Assembly: GCA_017307375.1 (NCBI GenBank)
Contig: JAFKFH010000006.1
Coordinates: 1-64,000 of the forward strand
Source of the DNA: Alphaproteobacteria bacterium
GTDB taxonomy: Bacteria > Pseudomonadota > Alphaproteobacteria > Ferrovibrionales > Ferrovibrionaceae
Reading direction: 5' to 3'
DNA length: 64,000 nt
This document shows positions 356-58,104 of the stretch, piece after piece. The position numbers and the translations under genes were made by a program. Each line of letters opens with the position of its first letter. The first letter of the stretch is position 1. The notes below the pieces were generated by a model. It ran no database searches and was not told where the DNA came from. It saw only the letters and a program-made list of their open reading frames with translations.

Positions 356-781
356 ATGATCGACCATCGCCTTGCCCCGTACGGTGCCCTTGCCCTGCGC
401 GTTGCGCTGGGCGTCATGTTCATCGCCCATGCCTATCTGAAGTTCGCCATTTTCACGATGCCGGGCTTCGCCGGCTTCCTCGCCCAGGTCGGACTGCCGA
501 CCTTCCTGGCCTGGCCGATCGTGCTGGCCGAATTCTTCGGCGGCCTGGCGCTGATCCTCGGCGTCTATGCCCGCGGCGTCGCCTTCGCCCTGCTGCCGGT
601 CCTGCTCGGCGCCCTCTCGGTCCATGCCGGCAACGGCTGGGTCTTCAACGCCCCGAACGGCGGCTGGGAATATCCGGCCTTCCTGGCGGTCGCGGCGGCC
701 GTGCAGGTGCTGATCGGCGACGGCGCGCTGGCGGTGCAGCCGACGACGCTGCCGCGGCGGCTGGTGGCACACGCGGCTTGA
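356..781 (+). CDS. DoxX family membrane protein
   Basis: A 141-residue integral membrane protein with four hydrophobic segments. It has the DoxX-type opening (ALRVALGVMFIAHAYLKF), a central GLALILGVYARGVAF helix and the short loop NAPNGGWEYP before the last membrane segment. DoxX proteins are small quinone-linked or redox-associated membrane proteins whose exact reaction is usually unknown. The ATG at 356 is chosen because the protein then begins directly with the conserved part. It is followed by a strong terminator and by a LysR regulator in the same direction, a common pairing in which the regulator controls doxX (inferred). Confidence 0.85.
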   Translation: MIDHRLAPYGALALRVALGVMFIAHAYLKFAIFTMPGFAGFLAQVGLPTFLAWPIVLAEFFGGLALILGVYARGVAFALLPVLLGALSVHAGNGWVFNAPNGGWEYPAFLAVAAAVQVLIGDGALAVQPTTLPRRLVAHAA

Positions 782-34051: not shown

Positions 34052-34924
34052 TCAGTGGGTCGCCAGGATCGGGATCCGGCTGCGGCTCAGCAGGTCGTGG
34101 GTGAAGCCGCCGAAGACGAATTCGCGCAACCTCGCATGGCCGTAGGCGCCGGCGACGATCAGGTCCGACCCGCGCTCCGCCGCGCGGATCAGCAGTTGGT
34201 CGGCAAGGGTCGGTCCGGCTGCGACCTCGACGGCGGAGAGGGCCTGGATCCGATGCCGCCCCAGGAAGGCAACGACGGACTCCAGCCGTTGCCGCACGGC
34301 CGCGATCTCGCCGGGCGATGCCTCCGGCGGGGCGATCTCGACCACTTCCACCTGGCGGGCCTGGCGCAGCAAGGGGATCGCGTCGGCGACGGCGCGCGCC
34401 GTTTCGCGCCGTTCGCTCCAGGCGATCGTCACGGTTTCGCCGATCGACGCCGGCGGGCCGCCTTCGGGCACGACCAGCACCGGCCGGCCCGACTCGACGA
34501 TCAGACCTTCGGCGAACCGTCCCGGTGCGTCCTTGTGATCCTCGCCCGTACCGGTCAGCCCGACGATTGCCAGATCGGCCCGCCGAGCGGCCTGGGCCAG
34601 CAGACTCGGCGGGTCGCTGAGGCCGCCAGGCTGGTTTCCGTCGATATGGAGCCATTCGGCAGCCGGCATGGTCGGGCTGAACGTGGCAAAATGGTCCCTT
34701 GCATGGCCTTCCGTCGCCGCCAGGGCGGCCTCGATCGTCCTGTCCCAGTCGGTTCCGGTGCGTCCGAATAGCGTGGCGGGCGCGATCCGCGCCGGCGAAA
34801 CATAGGCGCAGACCAGCCTGGCCCCGTGACGCTGGGCAAGGCCGCGGGCGAGGGCAAGTCGTGTCGCCGTCTGCCGCGTGTCGTCGACATGGACCAGGAT
34901 GGTGCTGAGCTCGCGCGCGGGCAT
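34052..34924 (-). CDS. Universal stress protein, two tandem USP domains (USP1)
   Basis: 290 residues. Both halves are UspA folds: the first opens STILVHVDDTRQTATRLALA, the second begins near VTIAWSERRETARAVADAIP. The nucleotide-binding loop near the C-terminus reads GAYGHARLREFVFGGFTHDL (G-x2-G-x9-G type), and the chain ends ILATH. Such proteins bind ATP in the cytoplasm and support survival under energy or oxygen stress. It lies 14 bases after the next USP gene and is probably co-transcribed with it from the FNR boxes near 35863 and 36280. Confidence 0.92.
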   Translation of the reverse strand: MPARELSTILVHVDDTRQTATRLALARGLAQRHGARLVCAYVSPARIAPATLFGRTGTDWDRTIEAALAATEGHARDHFATFSPTMPAAEWLHIDGNQPGGLSDPPSLLAQAARRADLAIVGLTGTGEDHKDAPGRFAEGLIVESGRPVLVVPEGGPPASIGETVTIAWSERRETARAVADAIPLLRQARQVEVVEIAPPEASPGEIAAVRQRLESVVAFLGRHRIQALSAVEVAAGPTLADQLLIRAAERGSDLIVAGAYGHARLREFVFGGFTHDLLSRSRIPILATH

Positions 34925-34938
34925 CTGTCGACCGGCGT

Positions 34939-35799
34939 TCAGTGGGATATCAGGACGGGCAGGGTCATCGAGGACAGGATAGATCGCGTCACCCCGCCCA
35001 GCACCATCTCCTGAAGCCGCGAGTGGCCGTAGCCGCCCATCACCAGCATGTCGGCACCGACATCCGCGGCGCGCGAGAGGATCAGTGACGCATCCCCGAT
35101 TCCGGGTACCCCGGGCAGATATTCCGACGCTGTCGCAAGGCCGTGCGCCTCGATATACCGGCGCAACGTCGCCAGTCCGTCGCGGTGCCGGGCGATTTCC
35201 TCTTCGGCCGCCCTCGCCGGCCCGATTTCCAGCAGATGTACTTTTTCCGCGTCGCGTAGCAGCGGAAGCGCGTCGTACAAAGCGCGTGACGCCTCGCGGC
35301 TCTCGGTCCAGGCGATCAGGGGGCGCCGGCCGACATCGGTGAAGCGGCCGGCCTGCGGTACGATCAGCACCGGCCGGCCGGCCGACATCATGACTTCCTG
35401 GGCCAGCAGGCCGGGACCCTGGGGCAGGGCGCCGTCGGTCTCGGTCTGTCCGACGACGATCAGATCGGCTCTCCGTCCTTGCGCCACCAGGACCGGCCCG
35501 GGACGGCCAAGGCCGTCCGCTTCCTCGACGCGCCAGACGGCATCGGGCACCTGCTGCTTCAACGCGGCGAAATGTTCCTCGGCCTGCCGCTGGATCGTCC
35601 GGCGATGTCGGCTCAACCGGTCGTTCCATCCGGGATCGACCTCGCCCGGCAGCGCCAGCGGCATCGTGGCTGGCGGCGCGACGAAGACGCCCACGAGGTC
35701 GGCTTCCAGACGACGCGCCAGCGTGCCGGCAAGGGCAAGGCGTGCCGGGCAGTGCCGGGTTTCGTCCACATGGACAAGAATCGTCGAGATCATGGGCAT
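34939..35799 (-). CDS. Universal stress protein, two tandem USP domains (USP2)
   Basis: 286 residues. Opens MISTILVHVDETRHCPARLA; the second domain begins near PLIAWTESREASRALYDALP. ATP loop GGYGHSRLQEMVLGGVTRSI; ends LPVLISH. Two start codons are possible, 35799 (AGGAGA about 6 bases upstream, preferred) and 35793 (ATGA overlap with the cytochrome stop). An FNR-type box inside the cytochrome gene is centred 64 bases upstream, so the gene may have its own low-oxygen promoter as well as cytochrome readthrough. Confidence 0.92.
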   Translation of the reverse strand: MPMISTILVHVDETRHCPARLALAGTLARRLEADLVGVFVAPPATMPLALPGEVDPGWNDRLSRHRRTIQRQAEEHFAALKQQVPDAVWRVEEADGLGRPGPVLVAQGRRADLIVVGQTETDGALPQGPGLLAQEVMMSAGRPVLIVPQAGRFTDVGRRPLIAWTESREASRALYDALPLLRDAEKVHLLEIGPARAAEEEIARHRDGLATLRRYIEAHGLATASEYLPGVPGIGDASLILSRAADVGADMLVMGGYGHSRLQEMVLGGVTRSILSSMTLPVLISH

Positions 35800-36215
35800 G
35801 GCTCGTCTCCTCCGATGTTCTTTGCGCAAGCCTGCACCCGGACCTGCGCCGGGTCGTTGATCCGGGTCAATCCCGGCTGCGGCGACGCGCCGCGCAGATC
35901 GAGGATGTAGGTGATGACCGCCGTCGTCTGCTCCGGCGTCAGGCTGAGGTTCGGCATCGTCTGGTGCGACGTCTGCAGCAGGACGCGCAGCGCCAGTGCG
36001 CTGATCGCGGGGTTGGCGGCCAGGTCGGCGAACGGAATCGCCGCCTTCAGCGGCGAGGTGCGATCCTGTCGACCGACGGCATGGCAGCCGCCGCAATTGG
36101 CGCGGACGAACGCCGCGTCCTCCTGCGAACCGGCGCCCGCCGATATTGTCGGGACAGTGGACGAGGCCAGCACGGCGACGAGAAACATGATCGGTATCGG
36201 TCGGTACATCGGCAT
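35790..36215 (-). CDS. Periplasmic c-type cytochrome
   Basis: 141 residues. Signal peptide (IPIMFLVAVLASSTVPTISA), one haem-attachment motif CGGCH (41-45), and a likely axial Met87 in HQTMPNLSLTPEQTTAVITY. This is a small class I cytochrome c that carries electrons in the periplasm. The partner oxidase or dehydrogenase is not in the window. It is divergent from an alcohol dehydrogenase across a perfect-geometry FNR box (36274-36287) and heads a cytochrome-USP2-USP1 unit. Confidence 0.9.
   Translation of the reverse strand: MPMYRPIPIMFLVAVLASSTVPTISAGAGSQEDAAFVRANCGGCHAVGRQDRTSPLKAAIPFADLAANPAISALALRVLLQTSHQTMPNLSLTPEQTTAVITYILDLRGASPQPGLTRINDPAQVRVQACAKNIGGDEPCP
35857..35870 (-). promoter_or_regulatory. 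FNR-type box inside the cytochrome c gene, upstream of USP2
   Basis: TTGAT-CCGG-GTCAA, one mismatch to TTGAT-N4-ATCAA. Centre is 64 bases upstream of the USP2 ATG, the same spacing as other boxes here, although it lies in cytochrome codons (read as Thr-Arg-Ile-Asn-Asp on the minus strand). Could be chance; no convincing -10 seen. Confidence 0.4.
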
Positions 36216-36273
36216 CCTCGCGATGTCGGCTGATGCAATGAGTCAATCTGCACCGGACGTCGTTCCCGCCGCC

Positions 36274-37340: not shown

Positions 37341-38207
37341 CTAGTGGGAGATGAAGACCGGCAGCATCGCCTCGGTCAGTACCTGCCGGGTCACGCCGCC
37401 CAGCAGATATTCATGCAGCCGCGAGTGGCTATAGCCGCCCATCACCAGGAGGTCGGCACCGAACGCGGCCGCATGGTGCAGAAGGCGCATGGCGATATCC
37501 TCGCTGCCCAGATTGTCGTCGCGCTGCAGCGTCGCGGCAACGTCGTGGACCGCGAGATAGTCGACGAGGCTTTCCAGATCGACGGCGGCTCGCATCGCCT
37601 CCGCCTGGCTCTCCCCCGGCGCACCGATCTGCAGGATGCGCACGGCGGCGGCGCGCCGCAGCAACGGCAGCGCATCGCGAACCGCCCTGGCCGATTCCCG
37701 ATCCGATCGCCAGCAGACGACGACCCGGTCGATCGCCTCGATCGCGGCGCAATGCCGCGGTACCACCAGGACCGGCCTGCCGCCGCGCAGCAGCACCTCC
37801 TGGGGCAGCGCACCCAGGCGGTGATCGCCGGTTTCCCCGGTGCCTGCCTGGCCGACGATCACCAGGTCGGCGAAATGCGCCTCGCGGACCAGTGTCGGCG
37901 CAATGTCGTCGAACAGGCTGGGTTCCGCATCGATCACCCGCCAGCGTGCCGACGGCATGTCGTGGGCGAGGCCGAGGAAATGCTCCTCGGCATGGCGCAT
38001 CGCGGTGCGGATGCGTCTTGCCGCTGCCTCGGTAAGGACGCAATCGACCGTGCACGGCATGGCGAACGGATTGGCGGCGCGCAAGGCGACATGCAGTGCG
38101 ACAAGCGTCGCCCCTTCGCGGCGCGCGATGTTTGCGGCAAGGCGCAGCCGGCCGGGACAGTCTTCGGCATCGTCGGCATGGACGATGATGGTGGCGATTT
38201 CAGGCAC
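37341..38207 (-). CDS. Universal stress protein, two tandem USP domains (USP3)
   Basis: 288 residues from GTG 38207. Opens (V)PEIATIIVHADDAEDCPGRL, aligning with the start of USP2; a GGAGAC site 7 bases upstream matches that of USP2, so the upstream in-frame ATG at 38243 is not used. The second domain begins near VVVCWRSDRESARAVRDALP. ATP loop GGYSHSRLHEYLLGGVTRQV; ends LPVFISH. It is convergent with the alcohol dehydrogenase and divergent from the L,D-transpeptidase across an FNR box. Confidence 0.92.
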   Translation of the reverse strand: MPEIATIIVHADDAEDCPGRLRLAANIARREGATLVALHVALRAANPFAMPCTVDCVLTEAAARRIRTAMRHAEEHFLGLAHDMPSARWRVIDAEPSLFDDIAPTLVREAHFADLVIVGQAGTGETGDHRLGALPQEVLLRGGRPVLVVPRHCAAIEAIDRVVVCWRSDRESARAVRDALPLLRRAAAVRILQIGAPGESQAEAMRAAVDLESLVDYLAVHDVAATLQRDDNLGSEDIAMRLLHHAAAFGADLLVMGGYSHSRLHEYLLGGVTRQVLTEAMLPVFISH

Positions 38208-38261
38208 GGCTTCGTCTCCGTCGTTGATCCTGCAGAACGCCATGGATCGGCCGCGCGGACC

Positions 38262-38275
38262 TTGATCAGGATCAA
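38262..38275. promoter_or_regulatory. FNR-type box between USP3 and L,D-transpeptidase genes
   Basis: Perfect TTGAT-CAGG-ATCAA. The centre is 61 bases from the USP3 GTG and 41 from the L,D-transpeptidase ATG. A weak TCTAGG lies about 30 bases away on the plus side. It most clearly fits leftward USP3 control. Confidence 0.8.
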
Positions 38276-38309
38276 CCCCTGTTGCGAGCCATCGCTCTAG
38301 GCTCGTCCG

Positions 38310-39227
38310 ATGACGACGCGCCGGGTCCCTCCGATCAGCCGTCGCCGGCTGATCGGAGCCGGCTGTCTGCTGGCGTGTACCGCGCTTGCCGGCGTCGCGC
38401 AGCCCGCGCCGGCAGACGACCTGCTGGGCGAGGTTCGGCTGCATGTCGCCGGACATGACGACACGCTGCCCGATCTGGCGGTCGACAACGATCTCGGCTA
38501 TGGCGAGGTGCTGGCCGCCAACCCGGACATCGATCCCTGGCTGATCCCCAGCGGGACCGTGATCGTGTTGCCGGGCGCCCACCTGCTGCCGCGCGCGCCG
38601 CGGCGGGGTATCGTGATCAACCTCGGCGATCAACGGCTCTATTTCTTCCGGGGCGCGACGGTCCGCAGCTTTCCGATCGGTATCGCGGTGGAAGAAAGGG
38701 ACATGCGGCTGGGGACGACGCGAATCCAGCGCAAGCAGGAAAATCCGACCTGGTATCCGCCGCCATCGGTCCGGGAGGAAAGCCCCTGGCTGCCCGACCG
38801 GGTGGCGCCGGGACCGGACAATCCGCTGGGCAGCCGTGCCCTCTATCTGGAATGGCCGCGGGTGCTGATCCATGGGACGAACAGGCCCTATGGCGTCGGG
38901 CGGCGGGTCAGTCATGGTTGCATCCGGCTCTACGAACCCGATATCGAGCAGCTCTATCGGGATGCACCGGTTGGCCTGCCGGTCACCTTCGTGTTCGAGC
39001 CGGTCAAGCTCGGCTGGTCGTCGGGCGTGCTCTATCTGGAAATCCATCCCACCCTGGACCAGATCGACGCGTTGGAGAACAATGAGGCGGTTGATCGCGA
39101 CGAGCCTGCCGACCTGCGGGAACTGGTGCTTGCCGCCGCCGGCTCGGCGGCCGACCGGCTCGAATGGGACACGGTGGCGCTGGCGGCCCGCCGGCGCAGC
39201 GGCCTGCCGGTGGCGATCGTCCGTTGA
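38310..39227 (+). CDS. L,D-transpeptidase (YkuD domain) with N-terminal LysM-like region
   Basis: 305 residues. Signal sequence with twin arginines (SRRRLIGAGCLLACTALAGV), a LysM-like stretch (LPDLAVDNDLGYGEVLAANP) and the YkuD catalytic domain (about 100-250) with IHGTNRPYGVGRRVSHGCIR; Cys204, His202 and His188 form the active site. It cross-links peptidoglycan or attaches lipoproteins to it in the periplasm, as in the ErfK/YbiS group. Its place inside the FNR island suggests cell-wall remodelling at low oxygen. The upstream box centre is only 41 bases from its ATG, so the plus-side promoter assignment is less secure. Confidence 0.92.
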   Translation: MTTRRVPPISRRRLIGAGCLLACTALAGVAQPAPADDLLGEVRLHVAGHDDTLPDLAVDNDLGYGEVLAANPDIDPWLIPSGTVIVLPGAHLLPRAPRRGIVINLGDQRLYFFRGATVRSFPIGIAVEERDMRLGTTRIQRKQENPTWYPPPSVREESPWLPDRVAPGPDNPLGSRALYLEWPRVLIHGTNRPYGVGRRVSHGCIRLYEPDIEQLYRDAPVGLPVTFVFEPVKLGWSSGVLYLEIHPTLDQIDALENNEAVDRDEPADLRELVLAAAGSAADRLEWDTVALAARRRSGLPVAIVR

Positions 39228-39248
39228 CGATGCCACCGGTGCGACCGG

Positions 39249-39789: not shown

Positions 39790-39803
39790 TTGATTGGAAT
39801 CAA
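39790..39803. promoter_or_regulatory. FNR-type box upstream of the FNR-family regulator gene
   Basis: Perfect TTGAT-TGGA-ATCAA, centre 109 bases upstream of the regulator ATG. This suggests autoregulation, or control by a second FNR/FixK protein. No good -10 was seen at the class II distance, so repression is also possible. Confidence 0.7.
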
Positions 39804-39905: not shown

Positions 39906-40685
39906 ATGCCCTCGTTCGCACCGGCCGCCGGCCGCGACGTTCCTGCGCAACCGCCGCCGACTGGCGTTCGGCCCTGCTGTGACGGGTCGCGCTCGCCCCG
40001 GCCTACCTGCAGCGCCTGCGTGGCGCGTGGCCTGACCATCTGTCGGGCGCTGCCGCCCGAGGAACTGGTCGAGATGGAGCAGCTGTCGACCGTCATCCGC
40101 ATCGAGGCCGGCGCGACGCTGTTCGACCAGGGCGACGAAGCCGGCAGCGTCTACAATCTGACCGCCGGGACCATCCGGCTCAGCAAGACTTTGGCCGACG
40201 GCAGGCGGCAGATCACCGGTTTCGTGCTGCCGGGTGACTTCATCGGCCTGTCGAGCCGGGCAACCCATCCCTATAGCGCCGAGGCGATCGGACCTTGCCA
40301 GCTTTGCCGGTTCAACGCGGCCACGCTGGGCCGGATGGCGGATCGGCTGCCCCGGCTGGAGCACGAACTGTTCGATCGAGCCCGCGACGAACTCGATGCC
40401 GCCCACGACCAGATGCTGCTGCTCGGCCGCAAGTCGCCGCGCGAGAAGGTTGCATCCTTCCTGCTGGAACTGGCCCATCGCTGCGAGCGCTGGGGGCAAC
40501 GCCCCGACCGGGTCAGCCTCGACATGACCCGGACCGACATCGCCGATTATCTGGGACTGACCATCGAAACCGTCAGCCGGACGTTGACCCGGATGAAGCG
40601 GGACGGGATGATCGCGCTGCCGTCGTCGAACGAGATCGTCTTCCTGCGGCTGGATGCCGTCCGCACCCTGGCCGAGGGCAGCTGA
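39906..40685 (+). CDS. FNR-type oxygen-sensing transcription regulator (Crp/Fnr family)
   Basis: 259 residues. A cyclic-nucleotide-binding-type sensor domain is preceded by cysteines Cys35-x2-Cys38-x7-Cys46, and Cys134 falls where E. coli FNR has its fourth cluster ligand. This spacing matches FnrN/FnrL proteins of alphaproteobacteria, so an oxygen-labile [4Fe-4S] cluster is likely. The helix-turn-helix ADYLGLTIETVSRTLTRMKR carries Glu221-x2-Ser224-Arg225, the E--SR reading head for TTGAT half-sites. An AGGGAGGA site precedes the ATG. It probably controls the eleven TTGAT-N4-(A/G)TCAA boxes in this region. Confidence 0.93.
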   Translation: MPSFAPAAGRDVPAQPPPTGVRPCCDGSRSPRPTCSACVARGLTICRALPPEELVEMEQLSTVIRIEAGATLFDQGDEAGSVYNLTAGTIRLSKTLADGRRQITGFVLPGDFIGLSSRATHPYSAEAIGPCQLCRFNAATLGRMADRLPRLEHELFDRARDELDAAHDQMLLLGRKSPREKVASFLLELAHRCERWGQRPDRVSLDMTRTDIADYLGLTIETVSRTLTRMKRDGMIALPSSNEIVFLRLDAVRTLAEGS

Positions 40686-42549: not shown

Positions 42550-43371
42550 TCAATGTGCCAGCAGCACGGGCAGCGGGGCGGTGCGCAGGATGTCGCGTGT
42601 CACCCCGCCCAGCACCCGCTCGCGCAGCCGCGAATGACCATAGGCGCCCATGACCAGAAGGTCGGCCCCGAGTTCGGCGGCGCGCCGCAACAGCGTGGCG
42701 CCGGGATCGAGGCGGCCGGACGACGCCACCTCCACTGTCACCTCCATGCCGTGGCGCGCCAGGTGCGCCGCAATGTCTGCGCCGGGTTCCTCGCCGTGAT
42801 CGGGGGCATCGCCCGGATCGACGACGAGAACGGTCACCTTCGCTCCCGGTTCGAGAAGCGCCAGCGCGTCGTTGACCGCCCGCACCGCCTCGCGCGTCGG
42901 CTTCCAGGCGACGACGGCATTGCGGCCGACGGCTGCCGGGCTGCCGGGCGGCACCATCAGCACCGGCCTGCCCGAATCGATCGCGAGATCGGCGGCCGTC
43001 ACGGTCGTGCCGTCCGGGGTCTCGGGCTTGGCACGGGCCACGACGGCGAGGTCGACATAGCGGGCGTGGAGCATCGCGGCGTCGGGGCCGCCGGCAGCGA
43101 CCAGCCAGCCGCCCGGGACCCCGGCGGCGGCCGTTCGCGCCTCGTAGCGCTCGCGGCAGCGCGCCGCGGCGAGATCCGCCTCCTCCCGCCATTGCTGCCA
43201 CAGCGGTTCGAACATCATCGGATCATAGCCCAGCGGCAGCCGCATCGGCGGCACCGGGAAGATGCCGGTCAACTGGGCGCCGTCGCGGCGTGCCAGACCG
43301 GTTGCGACATCGATCAGGCCGTCATCGCCCGCGCTCTCGTCGACATAGACGATCAGGTCTCTGATGGTCAT
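42550..43371 (-). CDS. Universal stress protein, two tandem USP domains (USP4)
   Basis: 273 residues. Opens MTIRDLIVYVDESAGDDGLI; the second domain starts near NAVVAWKPTREAVRAVNDAL. ATP loop GAYGHSRLRERVLGGVTRDI; ends LPVLLAH. ATG 43371 is preferred over 43377 because AAGGG lies 8 bases before it but only 2 before the other. An FNR box (43427-43440) is centred 62 bases upstream. FtsH follows directly, forming a stress-protein/protease unit. Confidence 0.92.
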   Translation of the reverse strand: MTIRDLIVYVDESAGDDGLIDVATGLARRDGAQLTGIFPVPPMRLPLGYDPMMFEPLWQQWREEADLAAARCRERYEARTAAAGVPGGWLVAAGGPDAAMLHARYVDLAVVARAKPETPDGTTVTAADLAIDSGRPVLMVPPGSPAAVGRNAVVAWKPTREAVRAVNDALALLEPGAKVTVLVVDPGDAPDHGEEPGADIAAHLARHGMEVTVEVASSGRLDPGATLLRRAAELGADLLVMGAYGHSRLRERVLGGVTRDILRTAPLPVLLAH

Positions 43372-43426
43372 CGGCATTGCCCTTCTGTTGCGGCCGGCAG
43401 AATGACACCGGCGCGCCGGGCGCGGG

Positions 43427-43498: not shown

Positions 43499-43867
43499 AT
43501 GACCAGCAAGATCCGACTTGAGCTCGCCCGGACCAAGGACCGGCCGGAAGGCGATATCCGCCATGGCTATGAACTCGTCGCGCCGCTCGACCCCGAAGGG
43601 CATCTCGACGTCGACGCCTGGCGGCACCAGCGTGCCGCCTGCACCGTGCATCGCTTCGCCCCCGGGGCCGAGGACGAGTTCGGCCGTCTGGTCCACACCC
43701 GGGGGCAGCGATGGGCGTTCTCCTATCGTCCGGGTGACGATGACGACGAGGCGGTCTTCCGGCTGGCCGACCATCGTTTCCGCGTCGGGGACTATGTCTC
43801 GATCACCGAGCATGACGGGGTGACCCGGCCGTTTCGCGTCGTGTCGGTCCGTCCGCTGCCGGCATGA
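43499..43867 (+). CDS. Conserved-looking hypothetical protein in the FNR island
   Basis: 122 residues; family not recognised. The chain is charged and acidic, with predicted short strands: RPEGDIRHGYELVAPLDPEG, HLDVDAWRHQRAACTVHRFA, FSYRPGDDDDEAVFRLADHR, FRVGDYVSITEHDGVTRPFR. The last part resembles a small beta-barrel and the whole looks cytoplasmic. It starts 65 bases from the FNR box and ends 10 bases before the acetyltransferase-like gene, so the two form one unit. Confidence 0.8.
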   Translation: MTSKIRLELARTKDRPEGDIRHGYELVAPLDPEGHLDVDAWRHQRAACTVHRFAPGAEDEFGRLVHTRGQRWAFSYRPGDDDDEAVFRLADHRFRVGDYVSITEHDGVTRPFRVVSVRPLPA

Positions 43868-43877
43868 CGGCGCGACG

Positions 43878-46112
43878 ATGACCATCCGGCACCTCGACGG
43901 CCTGTTTCGCCCCGCGGCCATCGCGGTGATCGGGGCCAGCCGGGACGAGGGTCGGTCGGGTGGCATGATCCTGCGGCGCTTGCGCGCCGGGGGCTTTGCC
44001 GGACCGGTACTCGCGGTCAACCGGCGGGCCGCGACGGTGCAGGGCCAGCCGGCCTGGGCCGACGTCGAGAGCCTGCCGCAGGTGCCCGATCTGGCCGTGC
44101 TGGCAACGGCGCCCGGCGAATTGCCGGGGCTGGTCCGCGCGCTATGCCGCCGGGGTTGCCGTGCCTTCGCCGTGCTGCCGCGCGACGGCGATGCGCCGGG
44201 GATGGCGACCGAGGCGCAAGACGCCACGCTCGCGGCGGCACGCCCCTGGCTCGGACGGCTTCTCGGGCCAGATAGCTTCGGGGTGATGGTGCCGGCGCCG
44301 CGTCTCAATGCCACGCTGGCGGTCGACCTGCCGGCGCCCGGGCATCTTGCATGCGTCACCGCATCGACGGCGGTGGCCGCCACGCTGCTCCACCGGGCAC
44401 AGGCATCGGGGATCGGCATCAGCAAGCTGGTCGGGGCCGGCGCGGCCGCCGACATCGACCTCGCCGATCTCGTCGACTATCTCTCTTTGGATGCCGATAC
44501 ACATGTGATCGCCCTGCATCTGCAGGCCGTGCCCAACGGACGCAAATTCATGTCCGCGTTGCGCGCGGCATCGCGGCTGAAACCGGTGATCGTGTGCCGC
44601 AGCGGCAATGCCGGCGACCCGGATGCCTGGACGGACGCGGTCCACGATGCGGTCTTCCGGCGCGCCGGCGCCCTGCGCGTGGCCGCCCTGGACGATCTCT
44701 TCGATGCTGCGATCGCCTTGGCTGCTCCCCATCGCCCGCGCGGGAGCCGGCTGGCCATCGCCGGCAACGGCGGCGGCCTGGCGACGATGACCGCGGATGC
44801 CGCCGCCGGTGCGGGGTTGCAGCCGCTAGGCGGCATGATCGATATCGGCGACCATGCCCGGCCGGCCCGCCATGTCGAGGCGCTCGCCCGGCTGGGGGCA
44901 CGAACGGGGGCCGACGCGTTGCTGCTGGCGCATGCCCCCTCCGGCATGGTGCCGACCGGGGATATCGTCCGGACAATCCTTGCCGCGCCGGGCGCCGGGC
45001 CGATCTGGACCGCGATCTGCCTTCCGGCCGCGAGCGCGGGCGAACGCCGGGCGCTGGGCGCGGTCGGCTACGCCGCGTTCGCCGATCCGCTCGCCGCCGT
45101 GCGCGGGCTGGGCCTCGCCCTGCGGCATCGTCAATTGCAGGATCTGGTCCAGCGGGTTCCAGGGCATGTCGCTGAAAGCGGTCGCGATTCGACCCGGCCG
45201 CTCGGTGGCGGGGACGGCCGCGGGTTGCTGGCCGATTACGGCATCCGGCATCTGCCGGCGGGGGTCGCGGCCGGCTTGTGGTGCGACCCGGTGTTCGGGC
45301 CGGCGGTATGGGTTGCGCCCGGCCCAGGCCCGGCCCGTTCTTTCGGCTTGCCGCCGCTGGACTCCGTGCTCGCCGCCGATCTTTGCCGCGACGTTGCCGC
45401 CGATGGCCTGACCGACCTTCTGGTTACACTCGGCCGGATTGCCATCGACCATCCGGAGATCAGGGAGATGGTGGTCGATGCGGCCGGCGACGCCGCCGGT
45501 CTGCGCTGCCGGGTCGCCATCCATGGCGGCCCCGCCCCGCCGATGCCCGCGATTCGTCCTTATCCGGCCGAGTTGGCCGGGATGGTGGCCTTGCGCGACG
45601 GCACGGCCATCGCGCTGCGCCCGGTCCGGCCCGACGATGCCCCGCTGGTCGATGATCTGTTCGAGCATCTGACGCCGGACGACGTCCACACCCGCTTCTT
45701 CAGCACCTTGCGCGTCTTGCCGCGGGCGTTGCGCGCCAGGCTGACCCAGATCGACTACGACCGCGAGATGGCGTTTGTCGCGATCGAGGAGACCGGCGGA
45801 GATCCCTGCCTCGTCGGCATGATCCATCTGCTTGCCGACCCGGATTTCGACGTCGCCGAGTTTGCCGTCATGGTCCGCAGCGACTGGCAGGGTCGCGGCG
45901 TCGGCCACCTGTTGATGCGGACGATCCTGTCCCACGCCCGGCGGCGCGGTCTGCGGCGTATCGTCGGCGTGGTGCTGAACGAGAACCGGCGCATGCTCGA
46001 TCTGGCGCGGCGCCTCGGCTTTGCCGCCGTGCATGGCCGCGATCCCGGCACGAGCGAGCTGCAGCTGGATCTCGAACCGCTCAGCCCTGGGCCAGGGCCA
46101 GCGCCCGCCTGA
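43878..46112 (+). CDS. Acyl-CoA-synthetase-like/GNAT fusion, probable protein lysine acetyltransferase (Pat-like)
   Basis: 744 residues. CoA-binding domain (RPAAIAVIGASRDEGRSGGM), a succinyl-CoA-ligase-like domain, then a C-terminal GNAT domain (about 570-735) with the acetyl-CoA loop WQGRGVGHLL. The order matches Pat/PatZ protein acetyltransferases. It is shorter than E. coli Pat (886): the ATP-grasp part (about 440-560) looks truncated, and the AHTGAL catalytic-His loop seen in the synthetase at 9013 is missing. A ligase reaction is therefore unlikely; acetylation of proteins such as acyl-CoA synthetases or stress proteins is more likely. Its 3' end overlaps the convergent permease gene by 32 bases. 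Confidence 0.85.
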   Translation: MTIRHLDGLFRPAAIAVIGASRDEGRSGGMILRRLRAGGFAGPVLAVNRRAATVQGQPAWADVESLPQVPDLAVLATAPGELPGLVRALCRRGCRAFAVLPRDGDAPGMATEAQDATLAAARPWLGRLLGPDSFGVMVPAPRLNATLAVDLPAPGHLACVTASTAVAATLLHRAQASGIGISKLVGAGAAADIDLADLVDYLSLDADTHVIALHLQAVPNGRKFMSALRAASRLKPVIVCRSGNAGDPDAWTDAVHDAVFRRAGALRVAALDDLFDAAIALAAPHRPRGSRLAIAGNGGGLATMTADAAAGAGLQPLGGMIDIGDHARPARHVEALARLGARTGADALLLAHAPSGMVPTGDIVRTILAAPGAGPIWTAICLPAASAGERRALGAVGYAAFADPLAAVRGLGLALRHRQLQDLVQRVPGHVAESGRDSTRPLGGGDGRGLLADYGIRHLPAGVAAGLWCDPVFGPAVWVAPGPGPARSFGLPPLDSVLAADLCRDVAADGLTDLLVTLGRIAIDHPEIREMVVDAAGDAAGLRCRVAIHGGPAPPMPAIRPYPAELAGMVALRDGTAIALRPVRPDDAPLVDDLFEHLTPDDVHTRFFSTLRVLPRALRARLTQIDYDREMAFVAIEETGGDPCLVGMIHLLADPDFDVAEFAVMVRSDWQGRGVGHLLMRTILSHARRRGLRRIVGVVLNENRRMLDLARRLGFAAVHGRDPGTSELQLDLEPLSPGPGPAPA

Positions 46113-51007: not shown

Positions 51008-51871
51008 TCAATGCGCCATCAGCACGGCGCAGTCGCCATGCTGCAGCACATGGCGGCTGACACCGCCTAGAACGAACTGGCGGAAGCGATTGTGGCCGAA
51101 GCCGCCCATCACCAGCAGGTCGCTGCCGCAGCCGCGGACCGCGTCCAGCAAGGCCGGACCGTCCCCGTCGCCATCGCCGACGACGGGTCGGACGGCCGCC
51201 GGCAAGCCGCGCCAGCGCAGGCTGTCCACCAGGCGCGCGGCGTCCTGCCGATGGCCGGCGTCGGCATCGACGCAGACGACCTCGATCGCCTTGGCCCGTT
51301 CCAGGAACGGTGCCGCTGCAGCGACGGCACGTGCCGCCTCGCGCCCCGGTGTCCAGCCGATCGCGATGCGGTCGTAGGTGACGGTGGGCTGCGGACCGGC
51401 CAGCAGCAGCGGCCGCCCGGTTTCGAACAGCGCGGCGTGAAGCATTCCCTGCGGCAGGCCGGTATCATCCGGCCGGCGCATGACGATCAGGTCGCTGACC
51501 CGGCCGGCGCCGGCCAGGGCGTCGGCCGGATCGCCATAGTCGAACAGCAATTCGGCCGAAAGGCCGTCGCGTGCCACGCCGGCGCGGCTCGTGACCGGAA
51601 TGTTGCGTCGGGCGCAGAAATCGTCGAATTGCCGACGCGCGGCCCGGCACCGGGTGTCGCCGTCGCGGTCGATCATCCCGGCAAGTTCTTCGGCCGGTAT
51701 CGAGGCCAGCATGTCGCCCCCGAGTGCCGCGACGTAGGCGGTGCCGTCGGTACGCACGTGCAGGCAGACGAGATGGGCGCCGAACCCCCGCGCCATGCCG
51801 CCCGCGGTTTCCAGCGCATCGACGGCACCGGCGCCGTCGCCGGCAAGCGGCACGAGAATGGTCCTGATCAT
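51008..51871 (-). CDS. Universal stress protein, two tandem USP domains (USP5)
   Basis: 287 residues. Opens [20 protein letters not shown], a different subfamily start (TILVP) from USP1-4 and USP6; USP7 shares it. The second domain begins near [23 protein letters not shown] loop [20 protein letters not shown]; ends CAVLMAH. It is the first gene of a USP5-HlyD-RbbA-permease unit. An FNR box at 51928-51941 and a TAGAAC hexamer (51900-51905, minus strand) lie at class II spacing upstream. Confidence 0.92.
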
Positions 51872-51927: not shown

Positions 51928-51941
51928 TTGATCGAGATCAA
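51928..51941. promoter_or_regulatory. FNR-type box between USP5 and mgtA
   Basis: Perfect TTGAT-CGAG-ATCAA. The centre is 63 bases from the USP5 start and 60 from the mgtA start. -10 candidates lie about 31 bases away on both sides: TAGAAC leftward and CGATAA (51963-51968) rightward. Confidence 0.82.
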
Positions 51942-51994
51942 TGTACACCGGCAGGCGACGGACGATAAGCGCCGCATCTTGCGGAGGTGTCGTG

Positions 51995-54520
51995 ATGGCC
52001 CGCCCGATATCCGAAGGAGGGTTCTGGACCAGACCGCTGGCCCAGACCCTGGCCTTGCTAGAGTGCGGAGCCGACGGGCTGGCGACTGCCGAGGCGGCGG
52101 CCCGGCTGCGGCGCACAGGACCCAATCTGGTACGTCAGCAGTCGCGCCGGTCGCTGTTGCGCCAGCTCGCCGCCCGGCTGCGCAATCCCCTGGTCATGAT
52201 CCTGCTCGGCGCCGCGGTCCTGTCGGCGATCACGGGCGACCGGGCCAGCTTCGCCATCATCGCCGCCGTGGTCGTCCTGAGCGTCGTACTCGATACCGTG
52301 CAGGAACATCGGGCGGCGACCGCGGCCGAGAGGTTGAGATTGTCGGTCGGGCTCAGCGAACGGGTCCTGCGCGACGGCCGTGAGCGTCTCGTCGCGGCGG
52401 CAGAGATCGTCCCGGGCGACGTCGTCCGGCTCGCGGCAGGCGACCTCGTGCCGGCCGACGGACTGGTGCTCGAAGCCCGCGACTTCTTCGTGAACGAGGC
52501 ATTGCTCACCGGCGAATCCTATCCTTGCGAAAAACGGCCCGCCGGTGATGCGGACACCGATACGGCGCAGGTGGCGTTCGCGGGAAGCTCGGTGGTCAGC
52601 GGTTCGGCCACGATGCTGGCGGTCGAGACCGGGCCGCGCACCCAGCTCGGCCATATCGCGGAAACCCTGCGGACACCGCCCCCGCCGGCCGCCCTGGAGC
52701 GCGGCGCCCATCAGTTCGGGATGATGATCATCCGGTTGACCGTGCCGCTGGTCCTGTTCGTGCTGATGGTCGACCTGGCGTTCCAGCGCCCGACACTCGA
52801 ATCCTTCCAGTTCGCGCTGGCGCTGGCGGTGGGGCTGACGCCCGAACTGCTGCCGATGGTGCTGTCGGTGACGCTGGCGCGCGGGGCGGTCCGGCTGGCG
52901 GCGCGCCGGGTCATCGTCAAGCGCCTGGCGGCGATCCATGACCTCGGCGGGATGGACGTGCTGTGCACAGACAAGACAGGCACGTTGACCGAGGCCCGGA
53001 TCAGTCTGGTCGGCCATGTCGGACCCGACGGCCGCGACAGCACGCGCGTCTTCGAACTGGCCTGGCTGAACAGCCGGTTCGAGACCGGTCTGCGCAGCCC
53101 CCTCGACGCCGCGGTGCTGGCAAGACCCTGGGCGCAAGGCGAAACCTGGCGGAAGATCGACGAGATACCGTTCGGTTTCGAACGCCGCCGCGTCTCGGTC
53201 CTGGTCGAGCGCGACGGCGAGCGCCTGCTGATCGCGAAGGGGGCGCCGGAGGACGTGCTGGCGCTATGTGACAGAACCGATGCCGAGGGCGTGCCGCATC
53301 GACTGGATCCGGCAGGGCGGACACAGATCCTGGCCACGTTCGAAAGGCTGAGCCGCCAGGGCTACCGCCTGCTGGGCATCGCCTGGCGGCCGGCGGCCGA
53401 CGGGCAGGCCAGGGCGGTCGTCGCCGACGAGGCCGGCTTGATCTTTGCCGGTTTTGCCGTGTTCGTCGATCCCCCGAAGGCGTCGGCCCGGGCGGCAATC
53501 GACGGGCTGCGCCGGTTCGGCATCGCGACCAAGGTGGTCACCGGCGACAATGAATTCGTCGCCCGCCATGTCTGCGCCGAGATCGGCATGGCGGTCGATG
53601 TGATGCTCACCGGTACCGAGCTCGAGCAATTGAGCGACGAGGCGCTGCTGGCCCGGGTCGAGCGCGTCGACCTCTTCTGCCGGGTCACGCCGGCGCAGAA
53701 GCACCGGGTGATCCTCGCCCTGAAGCGACGCGGCCATACGGTGGGGTATCTCGGCGACGGCATCAACGATGCCCCCTCGCTGCATGCTGCAGACGTGGGC
53801 ATCTCGGTCGAAGGGGCGGTCGACGTGGCCAAGGATGCCGCCGACCTGATCCTGCTGGAACGCGATCTCCGGGTGATCGAGGCCGGCGTCCGCGAAGGGC
53901 GGCGGACCTACGCCAACATCATGAAGTACGTGATGATGGGCACCAGCTCGAACTTCGGCAACATGTGTTCGATGGCCGCTGCCTCGGTGCTGCTGCCGTT
54001 CCTGCCGATGCAGCCGATCCAGGTCCTGCTCAACAACCTGCTCTACGACCTGTCGGAAGTGCCGATCCCGTTGGACGAGGTCGATGCCGAGGCCCTGGCC
54101 ACCCCTCAGCGCTGGGACATCGGTTTCATCCGCGGCTTCATGCTGGCGCTGGGGTCGCTCAGTTCGCTGTTCGACCTCCTGACCTTCGGCATCCTGCTCT
54201 GGGGCTTCGGGGCCGGGATGGCGGAATTCCAGACCGGCTGGTTCGTCGAATCCCTGGCAACCCAGGTCCTGGTGATCTTCGTCATCCGCACCGGCGGCAA
54301 CCCGCTGCGGGCGCGGCCTCATCCGTTGCTCGCGGTCGCGGCGCTGGGTGCCGTCGTCCTGGCGGCTGCGCTACCCTACCTGCCGGTCGGTGCCTGGTTC
54401 GGCCTGGTGCCGCTGCCACCAGGCTTCCTTGCCGCGCTGGCGGGGCTGACGATCGGCTATCTCGTCCTTGCCCAGTTCGCCAAGACCGCCTTCCTGCATT
54501 TCCACCAACAGAAGCACTGA
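51995..54520 (+). CDS. mgtA: Magnesium-translocating P-type ATPase
   Basis: 841 residues (E. coli MgtA 898). Phosphorylation motif DKTGTLTEA with Asp326, LTGES actuator motif, GDGINDAPSLHAADVGISVE hinge, and ten membrane segments. MgtA-specific stretches include VGLTPELLPMVLSVTLARGA and the C-terminal LLNNLLYDLSEVPIPLDEVD. It imports Mg2+ using ATP at the inner membrane. ATG 51995 has GGAGG 7 bases upstream; the in-frame ATG at 51941 is the last base of the FNR box and is rejected. FNR-type control of an Mg2+ pump is unusual; PhoP or a leader switch is the better known route. Confidence 0.92.
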   Translation: MARPISEGGFWTRPLAQTLALLECGADGLATAEAAARLRRTGPNLVRQQSRRSLLRQLAARLRNPLVMILLGAAVLSAITGDRASFAIIAAVVVLSVVLDTVQEHRAATAAERLRLSVGLSERVLRDGRERLVAAAEIVPGDVVRLAAGDLVPADGLVLEARDFFVNEALLTGESYPCEKRPAGDADTDTAQVAFAGSSVVSGSATMLAVETGPRTQLGHIAETLRTPPPPAALERGAHQFGMMIIRLTVPLVLFVLMVDLAFQRPTLESFQFALALAVGLTPELLPMVLSVTLARGAVRLAARRVIVKRLAAIHDLGGMDVLCTDKTGTLTEARISLVGHVGPDGRDSTRVFELAWLNSRFETGLRSPLDAAVLARPWAQGETWRKIDEIPFGFERRRVSVLVERDGERLLIAKGAPEDVLALCDRTDAEGVPHRLDPAGRTQILATFERLSRQGYRLLGIAWRPAADGQARAVVADEAGLIFAGFAVFVDPPKASARAAIDGLRRFGIATKVVTGDNEFVARHVCAEIGMAVDVMLTGTELEQLSDEALLARVERVDLFCRVTPAQKHRVILALKRRGHTVGYLGDGINDAPSLHAADVGISVEGAVDVAKDAADLILLERDLRVIEAGVREGRRTYANIMKYVMMGTSSNFGNMCSMAAASVLLPFLPMQPIQVLLNNLLYDLSEVPIPLDEVDAEALATPQRWDIGFIRGFMLALGSLSSLFDLLTFGILLWGFGAGMAEFQTGWFVESLATQVLVIFVIRTGGNPLRARPHPLLAVAALGAVVLAAALPYLPVGAWFGLVPLPPGFLAALAGLTIGYLVLAQFAKTAFLHFHQQKH

Positions 54521-54530
54521 TCGGCAACTG

Positions 54531-54544
54531 TTGATCATGATCAA
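54531..54544 (+). promoter_or_regulatory. FNR-type box upstream of the phasin gene
   Basis: Perfect TTGAT-CATG-ATCAA, itself a full palindrome, centred 78 bases upstream of the phasin ATG. A GATAAT -10 (54567-54572) sits 32 bases from the centre, giving near-ideal class II geometry. Confidence 0.85.
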
Positions 54545-54615: not shown

Positions 54616-54981
54616 ATGTCCGACCCATCGAAAAAGAAGGAAGCCGCCGAAACGGGATTCCCGTTCGCGACGGCGATCATGCCGGACGCCTCGGCGTTCG
54701 AGGGTTTCATGCAGTCCGGCCAGGCCTGTCTCCAGGCCTGCACCGACTGGCGTAACGAAGTGATGCGGTTCTTCGACCAGCGCCTGAAGGCCGACGAGAA
54801 GCTGGGTGCGGCACTCGGCGAGTGCAAGTCGCTCGTCGAAATCGCTGACCTGCAGCGCAATTGGGCGGTGACCGCCGCGCAGGACTACGCCGAGGAAGCG
54901 CAGCGCCTGGCCCAGATTGCCGCCGGATCCTTTCCATTCTGGCCGGACGCCGGGGCGAAAGGCGCACGCGGGAAAGTCTGA
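54616..54981 (+). CDS. Phasin family protein
   Basis: 121 residues. The helix WRNEVMRFFDQRLKADEKLG followed by CKSLVEIADLQRNWAVTAAQ and DYAEEAQRLAQIA is the phasin-2 pattern. Phasins coat polyhydroxyalkanoate granules and affect their number and size. It is a single-gene unit behind an FNR box with a good -10. Together with phaB at 58314, also behind an FNR box, it points to polymer storage as an electron sink at low oxygen. No PHA synthase lies in the window. Confidence 0.85.
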   Translation: MSDPSKKKEAAETGFPFATAIMPDASAFEGFMQSGQACLQACTDWRNEVMRFFDQRLKADEKLGAALGECKSLVEIADLQRNWAVTAAQDYAEEAQRLAQIAAGSFPFWPDAGAKGARGKV

Positions 54982-56074: not shown

Positions 56075-56923
56075 TTAGTGACTCATCAACACCGGCAGGG
56101 GCAGCCGGGTGAGCATCTCTCGCGTCATGCCGCCGAGCACCAGTTCGCGCAGCCGCCCGTGCCCATAGCCGCCCATGACCAGAAGGTCGGCTTCGAACCG
56201 CCCGCTGCGCGCAATCAGGGCGCCGGTCTCGTCGCCTGGATCCGCGCGAAGAATTTCCCCGTCGGCCGTGACCCCGTGCAAGGCGAGATAGCCCAGCGGC
56301 AGATCCAGTGCAGCCATGCTCGGTGTGGCTGCCTGGCCCACCGTGACGACGCAGACCCGTTCGGCGCGGCGCAGGAACGGCATGGCGTCGGCCAGGGCGC
56401 GGGCGGCCTCCCGGCTGTCGCTCCAGGCGACGACGATCCGTCGGCCGGCGTCTTCGTCGGCAAGGATGCGTGGCACGACCAGGACCGGGCGGCCTGTGGT
56501 GACGACCAGCTGCTGGGGCAGGCTGCCGGGCCGTTCGGCCTCGTCCTCGCCGGCGCCGCTCTGCCCGACGATCACGAGGTCGAAGCCGCGGGCCTGGCGC
56601 GCGACAAGGGCGGCGGGGCCGCCAGCCGCGGCGACGGCCGCGGGTCCGAAAGCCTGCCATGCGGTATCGCGACGGGGGCGCCGGAACGCCGCGAACATGT
56701 CCTGCGCGCGCTTTTGCATTTCGTCCGACCGGGATGCGATCAGGGTATCCCAGGCCTCATGTGCCTCGCCCGGCGCTACCGGCCCCATCGCCGCCGTTGG
56801 TGATGCGTAGATCCCCGAAACCATGGCCTGGAACCGGTCGGCCAGGCGACCCGCGAGACGAAGCCGGGACGGGCAGAACACCGTCTCGTCGACATGAACG
56901 AGAATCGAACGGATGTCGGTCAT
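56075..56923 (-). CDS. Universal stress protein, two tandem USP domains (USP6)
   Basis: 282 residues. Opens MTDIRSILVHVDETVFCPSR, closest to USP2 in its first strand; the second domain starts near RIVVAWSDSREAARALADAM. ATP loop GGYGHGRLRELVLGGMTREM; ends LPVLMSH. Its ATG overlaps the stop of a 48-codon frame upstream (ATGA), so translation may be coupled to that peptide. Confidence 0.92.
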   Translation of the reverse strand: MTDIRSILVHVDETVFCPSRLRLAGRLADRFQAMVSGIYASPTAAMGPVAPGEAHEAWDTLIASRSDEMQKRAQDMFAAFRRPRRDTAWQAFGPAAVAAAGGPAALVARQARGFDLVIVGQSGAGEDEAERPGSLPQQLVVTTGRPVLVVPRILADEDAGRRIVVAWSDSREAARALADAMPFLRRAERVCVVTVGQAATPSMAALDLPLGYLALHGVTADGEILRADPGDETGALIARSGRFEADLLVMGGYGHGRLRELVLGGMTREMLTRLPLPVLMSH

Positions 56924-57161: not shown

Positions 57162-58025
57162 TCAGTGCGCCATCAGGATCGGCAGCGGCGCCTGCGTCGT
57201 GACGGTATCGGTGACGCCGCCGAAGACGAACTGGCGAAACCGGCTGTGCCCATAGCCGCCCATCACCAGCAGGTCCGCGCCACCTTCGCGCGCGGCCGCC
57301 AGCAAGGTCGCGGCGACACCGTCGTCGCCCGGCGTCAGGAAGCGCGCCGACACGTTCGGCCGATGCCACTGCAGGGCGGCAGTCAGCCGCGCGCTGTCAT
57401 CGGCTTCGAACGGCGCATCCTCGCCGACCTCGAGCACCAGCACGCGCTCGGCGCGCTCGATGAACGGCATCGCCGCGGCAACGGCGTGGGCTGCCTCGCG
57501 GGTCGCCTTCCAGGCGATGGCGACCGTGCGAAATGCCGGCGGCAGCGGCCGGCTGCCCAGCAGAAGGAGCGGCCGGCCGCTTTCGAACAGGGCGTTCTCG
57601 GTCACGACCGGGGGCGCCATCCCGCCCTTGTCGCGCGGAATCAGGATCAGATCGGCGGTACGACCATGATCGGTGATGATGTCGGCCTCGCTCCCCGCCT
57701 CGACGCGATACTCCGCCGACATGCCGGGCAACAGGCTCGGGGTTTCCGCCCGCATCACCGCGTTCGTCTCGCAAAACCGCTCGAAGCTCGCCCGGGCCAC
57801 GGCCGCGCGCCCGGTTGCCTCCTCCTGGATTCGGGTGATCACCTCGCCGTCGATCGGCAGGCCGAGGCCGGCGCCGCTCATGGTCGCGGCGAACGTCACC
57901 CAGTCATGGCCGACATGCAGAAAGATCAGGTGCGAGGCGAAAGGCTGGCCAATCGCGGCCGCGGCGGCAAAGGTCGCCTCGTCGGCATCGGTCCCGGTCG
58001 CGGGAACGAGGATGGTCTTGAACAT
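57162..58025 (-). CDS. Universal stress protein, two tandem USP domains (USP7)
   Basis: 287 residues. Opens MFKTILVPATGTDADEATFA and shares the TILVP subfamily start with USP5. The second domain begins near RTVAIAWKATREAAHAVAAA. ATP loop GGYGHSRFRQFVFGGVTDTV; ends LPILMAH. An FNR box (58091-58104) is centred 72 bases upstream, with a TAGAAG hexamer (58063-58068, minus strand) at class II distance. It is probably a single-gene unit. Confidence 0.92.
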   Translation of the reverse strand: MFKTILVPATGTDADEATFAAAAAIGQPFASHLIFLHVGHDWVTFAATMSGAGLGLPIDGEVITRIQEEATGRAAVARASFERFCETNAVMRAETPSLLPGMSAEYRVEAGSEADIITDHGRTADLILIPRDKGGMAPPVVTENALFESGRPLLLLGSRPLPPAFRTVAIAWKATREAAHAVAAAMPFIERAERVLVLEVGEDAPFEADDSARLTAALQWHRPNVSARFLTPGDDGVAATLLAAAREGGADLLVMGGYGHSRFRQFVFGGVTDTVTTQAPLPILMAH

Positions 58026-58090: not shown

Positions 58091-58104
58091 TTGATTGGGA
58101 TCAA
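58091..58104 (-). promoter_or_regulatory. FNR-type box upstream of USP7
   Basis: Perfect TTGAT-TGGG-ATCAA, 72 bases from the USP7 start to the centre. TAGAAG on the minus strand (58063-58068) is 32 bases from the centre. Confidence 0.82.

Follow-up and report, generated by a model that had tools for sequence, protein, structure and literature searches.

A stretch of 64,000 nucleotides from a bacterium of the Ferrovibrionaceae (Alphaproteobacteria; positions 1 to 64,000 of contig JAFKFH010000006.1, assembly GCA_017307375.1), referred to here as the window, carries at 43878-46112 a gene for a protein acetyltransferase (Pat) that lies among genes for universal stress proteins (USPs). Our analysis suggests that this Pat is probably a type I protein lysine acetyltransferase in which the synthetase half has been reduced to a scaffold and likely acyl-CoA sensor, and that it would be switched on by an FNR-type regulator to acetylate its clients at low oxygen. 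The chief element missing from its synthetase half, one lobe of the ATP-grasp domain, seems to have been lost several times in other bacteria.

Domains, fold and missing parts of the window Pat

An earlier note on this DNA, made from the letters alone, had described the protein as keeping CoA-binding and GNAT domains with a shortened ATP-grasp part, and this description stands. CoA_binding_2 (PF13380, 62.6 bits), Succ_CoA_lig (PF13607, 106.5 bits) and GNAT (PF00583, 53.2 bits) all match above their Pfam cut-offs, and ATP-grasp_5 scores 13.8 bits, under its cut-off of 27.6. The gene is coding-like in composition, with a G+C content at third codon positions (GC3) of 0.836. The nearest solved structures by sequence are those of E. 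coli PatZ (9it0 and 9isq, E 3e-92), the enzyme of E. coli and Salmonella also called Pat, YfiQ or Pka. An AlphaFold2 model of the window Pat, calculated from an alignment of 38 sequences (pLDDT 88.6, pTM 0.89), matched 9it0 in Foldseek with an E of 5.9e-68. The alignment with PatZ structures that the note had proposed covers 724 residues of liganded 9it0 (VIA-align Z 38.3, root mean square deviation 3.1), yet the ATP-grasp lobe is absent and the phospho-His loop deleted. The GNAT domain also matches that of S. lividans Pat in the structure of its complex with Acs (4u5y, Z 26.5). Glu-661 is the alignment counterpart of Glu-809 in E. coli PatZ, the CoA motif QxxGxG reads QGRGVG (residues 671-676), and TQIDYDRE is invariant or nearly invariant across the 38 sequences. 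Domain order, predicted fold, the catalytic Glu and the CoA motif are therefore common to the two proteins. The catalytic Glu of PatZ is reported to be helpful rather than strictly required, and the N-terminal part of a type I Pat to bind acetyl-CoA and to be needed for activity (PMC8556138). Pfam found no cyclic-nucleotide-binding N-terminal domain in the window Pat, which separates it from the type III, cAMP-regulated enzymes.

The chief gap with respect to E. coli PatZ is the ATP-grasp N-lobe, residues 501-583 of that protein. Further blocks of 15-16 residues are missing at 315-330, 456-470 and 635-649, along with six residues each at 394-399 and at 244-249, the last being the phospho-His loop. 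The ALK and HKS(D/E) motifs, which we take to be the ATP-site residues of the N-lobe, fall within the missing 83-residue block. With the ADP-forming acyl-CoA synthetases (4xyl, 8wzu and the window's own enzyme at 9013-11127) the protein shares the CoA-binding and flavodoxin-like domains; unlike them it lacks the phospho-His loop and the ATP-binding lobe and has gained a GNAT domain. In the synthetase at 9013-11127, ATP-grasp_5 is nearly complete (positions 4-217 of 221) and AHTGAL is retained. The deleted loop and the sub-threshold ATP-grasp place Pat outside that class.

The loss of the AHTGAL loop, to which the note had drawn attention, is real when set against the synthetase at 9013-11127 but is ordinary for type I Pats. 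Since E. coli PatZ is itself without the phospho-His and reads NTTAGMD at this place, we rejected the loss as a hallmark; the synthetase domains of such Pats are reported to be inactive (PMC8556138). Where E. coli PatZ and the window Pat do differ is in the ATP-grasp, complete in the former, and in lysine content (28 residues against 3). The window protein thus has the synthetase domains, the GNAT motifs and the predicted fold of the type I enzymes (PatZ/SePat) and lacks a full ATP-grasp. Because this region is incomplete, as it is in 25 other Pats of the 112 described below, we class it from its sequence as a variant of type I and not a standard member. With the N-lobe and the phospho-His loop gone, we would expect neither acyl-CoA synthesis nor a response to ATP through the ATP-grasp site. 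What remains of the synthetase-like half, namely the CoA-binding domain, the flavodoxin-like domain and the remnant of the C-lobe, is predicted to fold as in PatZ and to carry an intact GNAT domain, and may serve as a scaffold and probable acyl-CoA sensor.

Lobe-less Pats in other bacteria

A set of Pats was fetched by likeness to the window protein, and is for that reason not a random sample. From its 151 rows, 23 were dropped by hand (14 near-alike Burkholderiaceae sequences and L085, all lobe-less, and 8 full ones), 15 more were removed by a 90% identity filter, and L065, from a frameshifted contig of a metagenome-assembled genome (MAG) with ATP-grasp_5 matches in two stretches, was set aside, which left 112. 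The N-lobe is absent from 26 of these, the window Pat included. The lobe-less proteins come from Burkholderiaceae, one other Burkholderiales MAG, Macromonas, Competibacteraceae, MAGs labelled Deltaproteobacteria or Syntrophobacteraceae, Nevskiales, Acetobacteraceae, a Rhodospirillales MAG, an Erwinia MAG, Rosenbergiella, Vibrio breoganii, the alphaproteobacteria G188 and G375, and, twice, the window genome. Among 386 alphaproteobacterial genomes 103 gave a strong Pat match, and at least three of the 103 (G188, G375 and the window genome, G000) hold single-piece Pats that look lobe-less by eye. Seventeen lobe-less relatives were scanned: in 14 of them the ATP-grasp_5 match begins at profile position 103-113; for the remaining three there was no match at the limits used (L044, L078) or one under the cut-off (L083). 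Two full Pats were scanned as well: PatZ of E. coli, with a match spanning 1-220, and a Pat from the same family as the window genome; both match from position 1-2. In the literature, no description of lobe-less Pats was found among the papers listed.

A quick tree was made with the columns of the trait itself removed; the lobe changes state eight times on the best tree and at least six times as forced by starred branches. Such a tree gives no direction of change, and its stars are less sure when long rows are present. The natural reading is loss: the ADP-forming synthetase at 9013-11127 carries the lobe, and the Pats of Erwinia and Rosenbergiella (L055, L056) group with E. coli PatZ (L116) yet are without the lobe that it keeps. 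We claim no separate loss for the window Pat, since its place in the tree is unsure. As regards the phospho-His, the motif is absent in 33 of the 112 Pats: 24 lack both motif and lobe, nine only the motif and two only the lobe. The notable point is that 77 keep both. When the tree is respected, the two losses are not significantly paired (independent pairs: 2.6 in the same direction, 0.1 in the opposite, 3.3 with no difference).

The window genome encodes a second Pat (G000:C13:259072-261504; L002, L145), which is 39% identical, also lobe-less, and keeps the His in its loop.

The low-oxygen locus and the 121-residue protein

Low-oxygen control of the locus is well supported at the sequence level, because seven of the 13 perfect TTGAT-N4-ATCAA sites in the 7.54-Mb genome lie between 38262 and 58104 and a CRP/FNR gene stands there behind a box of its own (Table 1). 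Shuffles of the window gave a mean of 0.00 such boxes against the seven present. The cysteines of the regulator, CxxCx7C and an internal pair, are presumably the mark of an oxygen-sensing FNR. The sequence thereby supports the low-oxygen trigger that the note had envisaged, and all seven USP genes among which it placed Pat were found, clustered with FNR boxes as in an lxa-like, FNR-regulated USP locus.

Table 1. Features of the window in and around the pat locus
Feature	Position	Strand	Remarks
Type I (PatZ-like) Pat without ATP-grasp N-lobe and phospho-His loop	43878..46112	+	744 aa, open frame
Parts of Pat (residues)	14-137; 154-280; ~463-548; ~579-715		CoA-binding; flavodoxin-like; remnant ATP-grasp C-lobe; GNAT
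Pat codons 461/462	45258..45263	+	E. coli PatZ has 83 extra residues here (501-583, ATP-binding lobe), by alignment
121-aa protein, conserved, unnamed family	43502..43867	+	predicted small beta-barrel; first gene of likely ORF-pat operon
FNR box TTGATCTCGATCAA	43427..43440	.	centre 56.5 bp from USP4 start codon, 68.5 bp from ORF start codon
CRP/FNR regulator	39906..40685	+	N-terminal CxxCx7C and internal Cys pair; own FNR box upstream, 39790-39803
USP1 and USP2	34052..36246	-	tandem USPs; upstream parts of raw ORFs taken as non-coding
USP3	37341..38243	-	no lysine from ATG at 38243 to end; 3' part of raw ORF 37341-39236
USP4	42550..43377	-	tandem USP; 275 aa, 3 lysines
USP5	51008..51871	-	FNR box 51928-51941 between USP5 and P-type ATPase
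P-type cation ATPase	51941..54520	+	raw ORF starts at FNR-box edge; start codon not settled
Phasin	54616..54981	+	FNR box 54531-54544 upstream
USP6	56075..56923	-	
USP7	57162..58025	-	FNR box 58091-58104 upstream

The note had given Pat a box shared with USP4. The box does lie between USP4 and a divergent gene, but that gene is an open reading frame (ORF) for 121 residues; it sits between box and Pat and ends 10 bp before the latter, so that Pat probably comes second in its operon (order: USP4 on the minus strand, box, ORF and Pat on the plus strand). The family of the 121-residue protein is present in 71 of the 386 alphaproteobacterial genomes, with loci L258-L277, L161 and L197 among its places beyond the window, and 13 positions are invariant across 22 members. 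The window member has no Pfam or NCBIfam match over cut-off. Its model is a confident small beta-barrel (pLDDT 88.6), and we claim no fold family for it because no convincing match was found in the PDB (none at E up to 0.001; best VIA-align Z 6.2).

USPs occur in 11 of 20 neighbourhoods of this ORF against one of 40 control regions (p=5e-6), the 20 being drawn from the 71 genomes, mostly best matches, and several being cut by contig ends. The ORF lies within 5 kb of Pat in eight of the 43 genomes that have both, among the matches listed and with the window genome included; leaving the window aside, a rough Poisson estimate for the remaining seven of 42 is 5e-11, the close pairs having been read by eye from coordinates. 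Upstream of the ORF, outside the window, an exact FNR-like box was found in 0/22 cases against 3/303 controls, and a box with up to one mismatch in 5/22 against 22/303 (p=0.026). These comparisons suggest that the link between Pat and USPs is supported mainly through the 121-residue protein. Several single records add to the picture of its surroundings. In L197 the ORF and Pat have as neighbours what by eye looks like a cbb3 oxidase gene cluster, and in a Terrarubrum plasmid record the ORF is divergent from ccoNOQP. A Sphingobium plasmid record has it with truncated haemoglobins, acetate kinase and phosphate acetyltransferase (ackA/pta), an alcohol dehydrogenase and USPs; in one from Azospirillum a single small gene separates it from a USP, and in one from Nitratireductor its surroundings are inositol and sugar genes, no USP being shown.

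Further genes of the locus encode a BON protein, an L,D-transpeptidase, FtsH and an alcohol dehydrogenase; by eye, another alcohol dehydrogenase and a probable polyhydroxybutyrate (PHB) reductase can be added. The lxa (low-oxygen-activated) locus of Burkholderia cenocepacia likewise joins several USPs to a PHB reductase, a zinc alcohol dehydrogenase and a BON protein (PMC6127331), a likeness in gene content only and partly in names given by eye; that report names no acetyltransferase, its tables giving only proteins that changed. In Rhodobacter, also an alphaproteobacterium, TTGAT-N4-ATCAA boxes mark the FnrL targets uspA, ccoNOQP, rdxBHIS, fnrL and hemZ, and FnrL binds at uspA, which places a USP under an FNR protein as in the window; the word acetyltransferase is absent from the main text of that paper (PMC2908626). 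Two USPs of Herbaspirillum are Fnr targets (PMC5934665). The USPs of B. thailandensis fell, not rose, at low oxygen (PMC3966863). In B. cenocepacia H111, which is without the lxa locus, micro-oxia raised BCAM2710, a 'Protein acetyltransferase', 19.5-fold as protein and 1.9-fold as transcript (PMC3759415). The same gene is labelled 'Putative acetyl-CoA synthetase' elsewhere (PMC3862766), and as a lead only it may be one of the Burkholderia lobe-less Pats.

Clients, lysine content and rival explanations

We propose that at low oxygen the FNR-type regulator of the locus would act at the one shared box, switching on USP4 in one direction and the 121-residue protein with Pat in the other, as box and gene order suggest. 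From what its family does, Pat would then acetylate client lysines with acetyl-CoA, and the sirtuin of the genome could reverse the reaction. Its gene linkage would make the barrel protein a candidate for an adaptor or partner that connects Pat with the USPs. The note had named USPs or acyl-CoA synthetases as substrates, and judging from the family AMP-forming acyl-CoA synthetases appear the more likely clients. The genome holds many matches to these enzymes and one sirtuin, and two of the three acyl-CoA synthetase loci fetched contain PKTRSGK, which we take to be the Pat target motif of Acs; acetylation of such enzymes is thus plausible at the sequence level. One PKTRSGK-bearing synthetase, PrpE-like by eye, is a neighbour of the second Pat at a distance of about 8 kb. 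Acetyl-CoA-synthetase-like 3' ends stand at two contig ends (G000:C30:16-570 and C37:187341-187895) and could belong to a repeated acs at which the assembly broke.

A rival reading, in our view unlikely, is that at low oxygen Pat acetylates the locus's own USPs and thereby adjusts how active they are. It would fit the box between USP4 and the ORF-pat side and the neighbourhoods of the window, L161, L259 and L269, each of which combines a USP, the 121-residue ORF and a Pat. Two further layouts point the same way. In a Herminiimonas MAG (L102 8946-12703) a USP on the minus strand, a perfect FNR box at 9888 and a full-length Pat on the plus strand are followed by a hemN-like gene, a layout as in the window; in a Burkholderiales MAG (L037 2055-12973) an FNR box and a lobe-less Pat are followed directly by a USP and then by hemN-like and fnr-like genes, with an acetate-kinase-like gene upstream (names by eye). 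The mycobacterial precedent that the note had invoked is real: the M. smegmatis Pat acetylates a USP (PMC6800001). The mycobacterial enzyme (MSMEG_5458/Rv0998) shares the GNAT domain with the window Pat; it is a cAMP-regulated type III protein with a cAMP-binding N-terminal domain in place of the synthetase part (PMC8556138), a domain that the window Pat does not have. A literature search on USP acetylation returned, among the matches listed, titles on ubiquitin-specific proteases or eukaryotic sirtuins.

The lysines argue against the USPs as substrates in general. USP1-7 contain 1, 2, 0, 3, 1, 1 and 3, or 11 in 1993 residues (0.55%), against 83 in 5126 (1.62%) in 12 other window proteins including Pat (p=2e-4), and they occupy no one shared place. 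Acetylation of USP1-7 cannot hold as the note stated it, because USP3 has no lysine, and its USP part is correspondingly weak. An alcohol dehydrogenase (ADH1) and the L,D-transpeptidase of the window are nearly as lysine-poor. Compared with six USP calls elsewhere in the genome, a set that misses at least one Pfam USP (C9:221017-221829) and most of which have a higher content, the window USPs are poorer at p=0.005, or p=0.010 without one doubtful call. The neighbourhoods speak in the same sense: a USP was near Pat in five of 40 alphaproteobacterial regions against one of 40 control regions at 70 kb distance on the same contigs (p=0.20, a trend only), with FNR boxes in four against none (p=0.12), and 20 of 20 Burkholderiaceae lobe-less Pats have no USP within about 9-10 kb. 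Over the 68 of 80 named loci that reach 15 kb, counted without a matched control, a USP is present in 12 and an FNR box in 10.

Several observations weigh against the reading that we prefer, that of an FNR-switched acetyltransferase with a reduced synthetase half. Among the 35 named loci with a lobe-less Pat and a length of at least 15 kb, a USP is in reach in only three (directly adjacent in L037), and L143 and L144, two lobe-less relatives from alphaproteobacteria, showed none on their contigs. Pats in general have no enrichment of FNR boxes upstream (exact, 4/105 against 23/1067 control genes; with up to one mismatch, 11/105 against 65/1067; three Pats with short flanks left out), so that FNR control of Pats as a class is not shown by these counts. 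The three lysines in the 744 residues of the window Pat, the lowest K/(K+R) of the 112, mean that the octamer of E. coli PatZ, reported to be driven by autoacetylation (PMC8556138), may not apply. In samples of gene calls from the genome, those as lysine-low as Pat number two of 140 at 300 residues or more and 10 of 217 at all lengths, the calls being mechanical and some of their frames doubtful. Lobe-less Pats remain lysine-poorer after allowing for GC3 (t=4.4; 112 of 113 rows, one having no GC3 value, with L065 counted among 27 lobe-less), which is a lead only because related rows are not independent. Finally, the branch of the window Pat is long (1.53) and outside every starred clade, which fits relaxed constraint as well as it fits a new function.

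The long branch would equally suit a decaying paralogue, a duplicate that has lost its ATP-grasp and more on the way to a pseudogene. The window Pat has lost more than the lobe-less L002 and L055, the genome has its second Pat, and 17 genomes of the same family, several of which are incomplete, showed no counterpart. We nevertheless hold decay to be improbable: the reading frame is intact and coding-like, the GNAT core and the Glu-809 equivalent are kept, the predicted fold is confident over nearly the whole length, and lobe-less Pats are retained throughout the sampled Burkholderiaceae clade. Less credible still is an acyl-CoA-gated regulator or scaffold whose GNAT domain has a small molecule as its substrate or is inactive, with USPs and barrel protein as its partners. 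The preserved CoA-binding part and the partner-like linkage of the 121-residue ORF would suit such a protein, but its GNAT domain is nearest to protein-acetylating Pat GNATs in sequence and predicted fold, and its catalytic and CoA motifs are intact. A bolder combination, to which we give only a small chance, is that type I Pats have repeatedly been made ATP-blind by the clean removal of one lobe, that the 121-residue protein here acts as adaptor between Pat and USPs, and that the lysine scarcity of both reflects selection against self-acetylation, the USPs then being partners shielded from acetylation and not substrates.

What the inactive synthetase half does in PatZ-type enzymes is reported to be only partly understood (PMC8556138). 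Repeated deletion of the ATP lobe with the rest kept may show which parts matter for acetyl transfer, and natural deletion variants are at hand, such as the Erwinia and Rosenbergiella Pats beside E. coli PatZ. The lysine counts sharpen the question of USP acetylation and make USP3 a built-in negative control. The 121-residue protein, tied to USPs, to Pats and, in single records, to high-affinity oxidase genes, is a candidate component of the low-oxygen response, and this putative partner and the repeated loss of the lobe are the points worth following.

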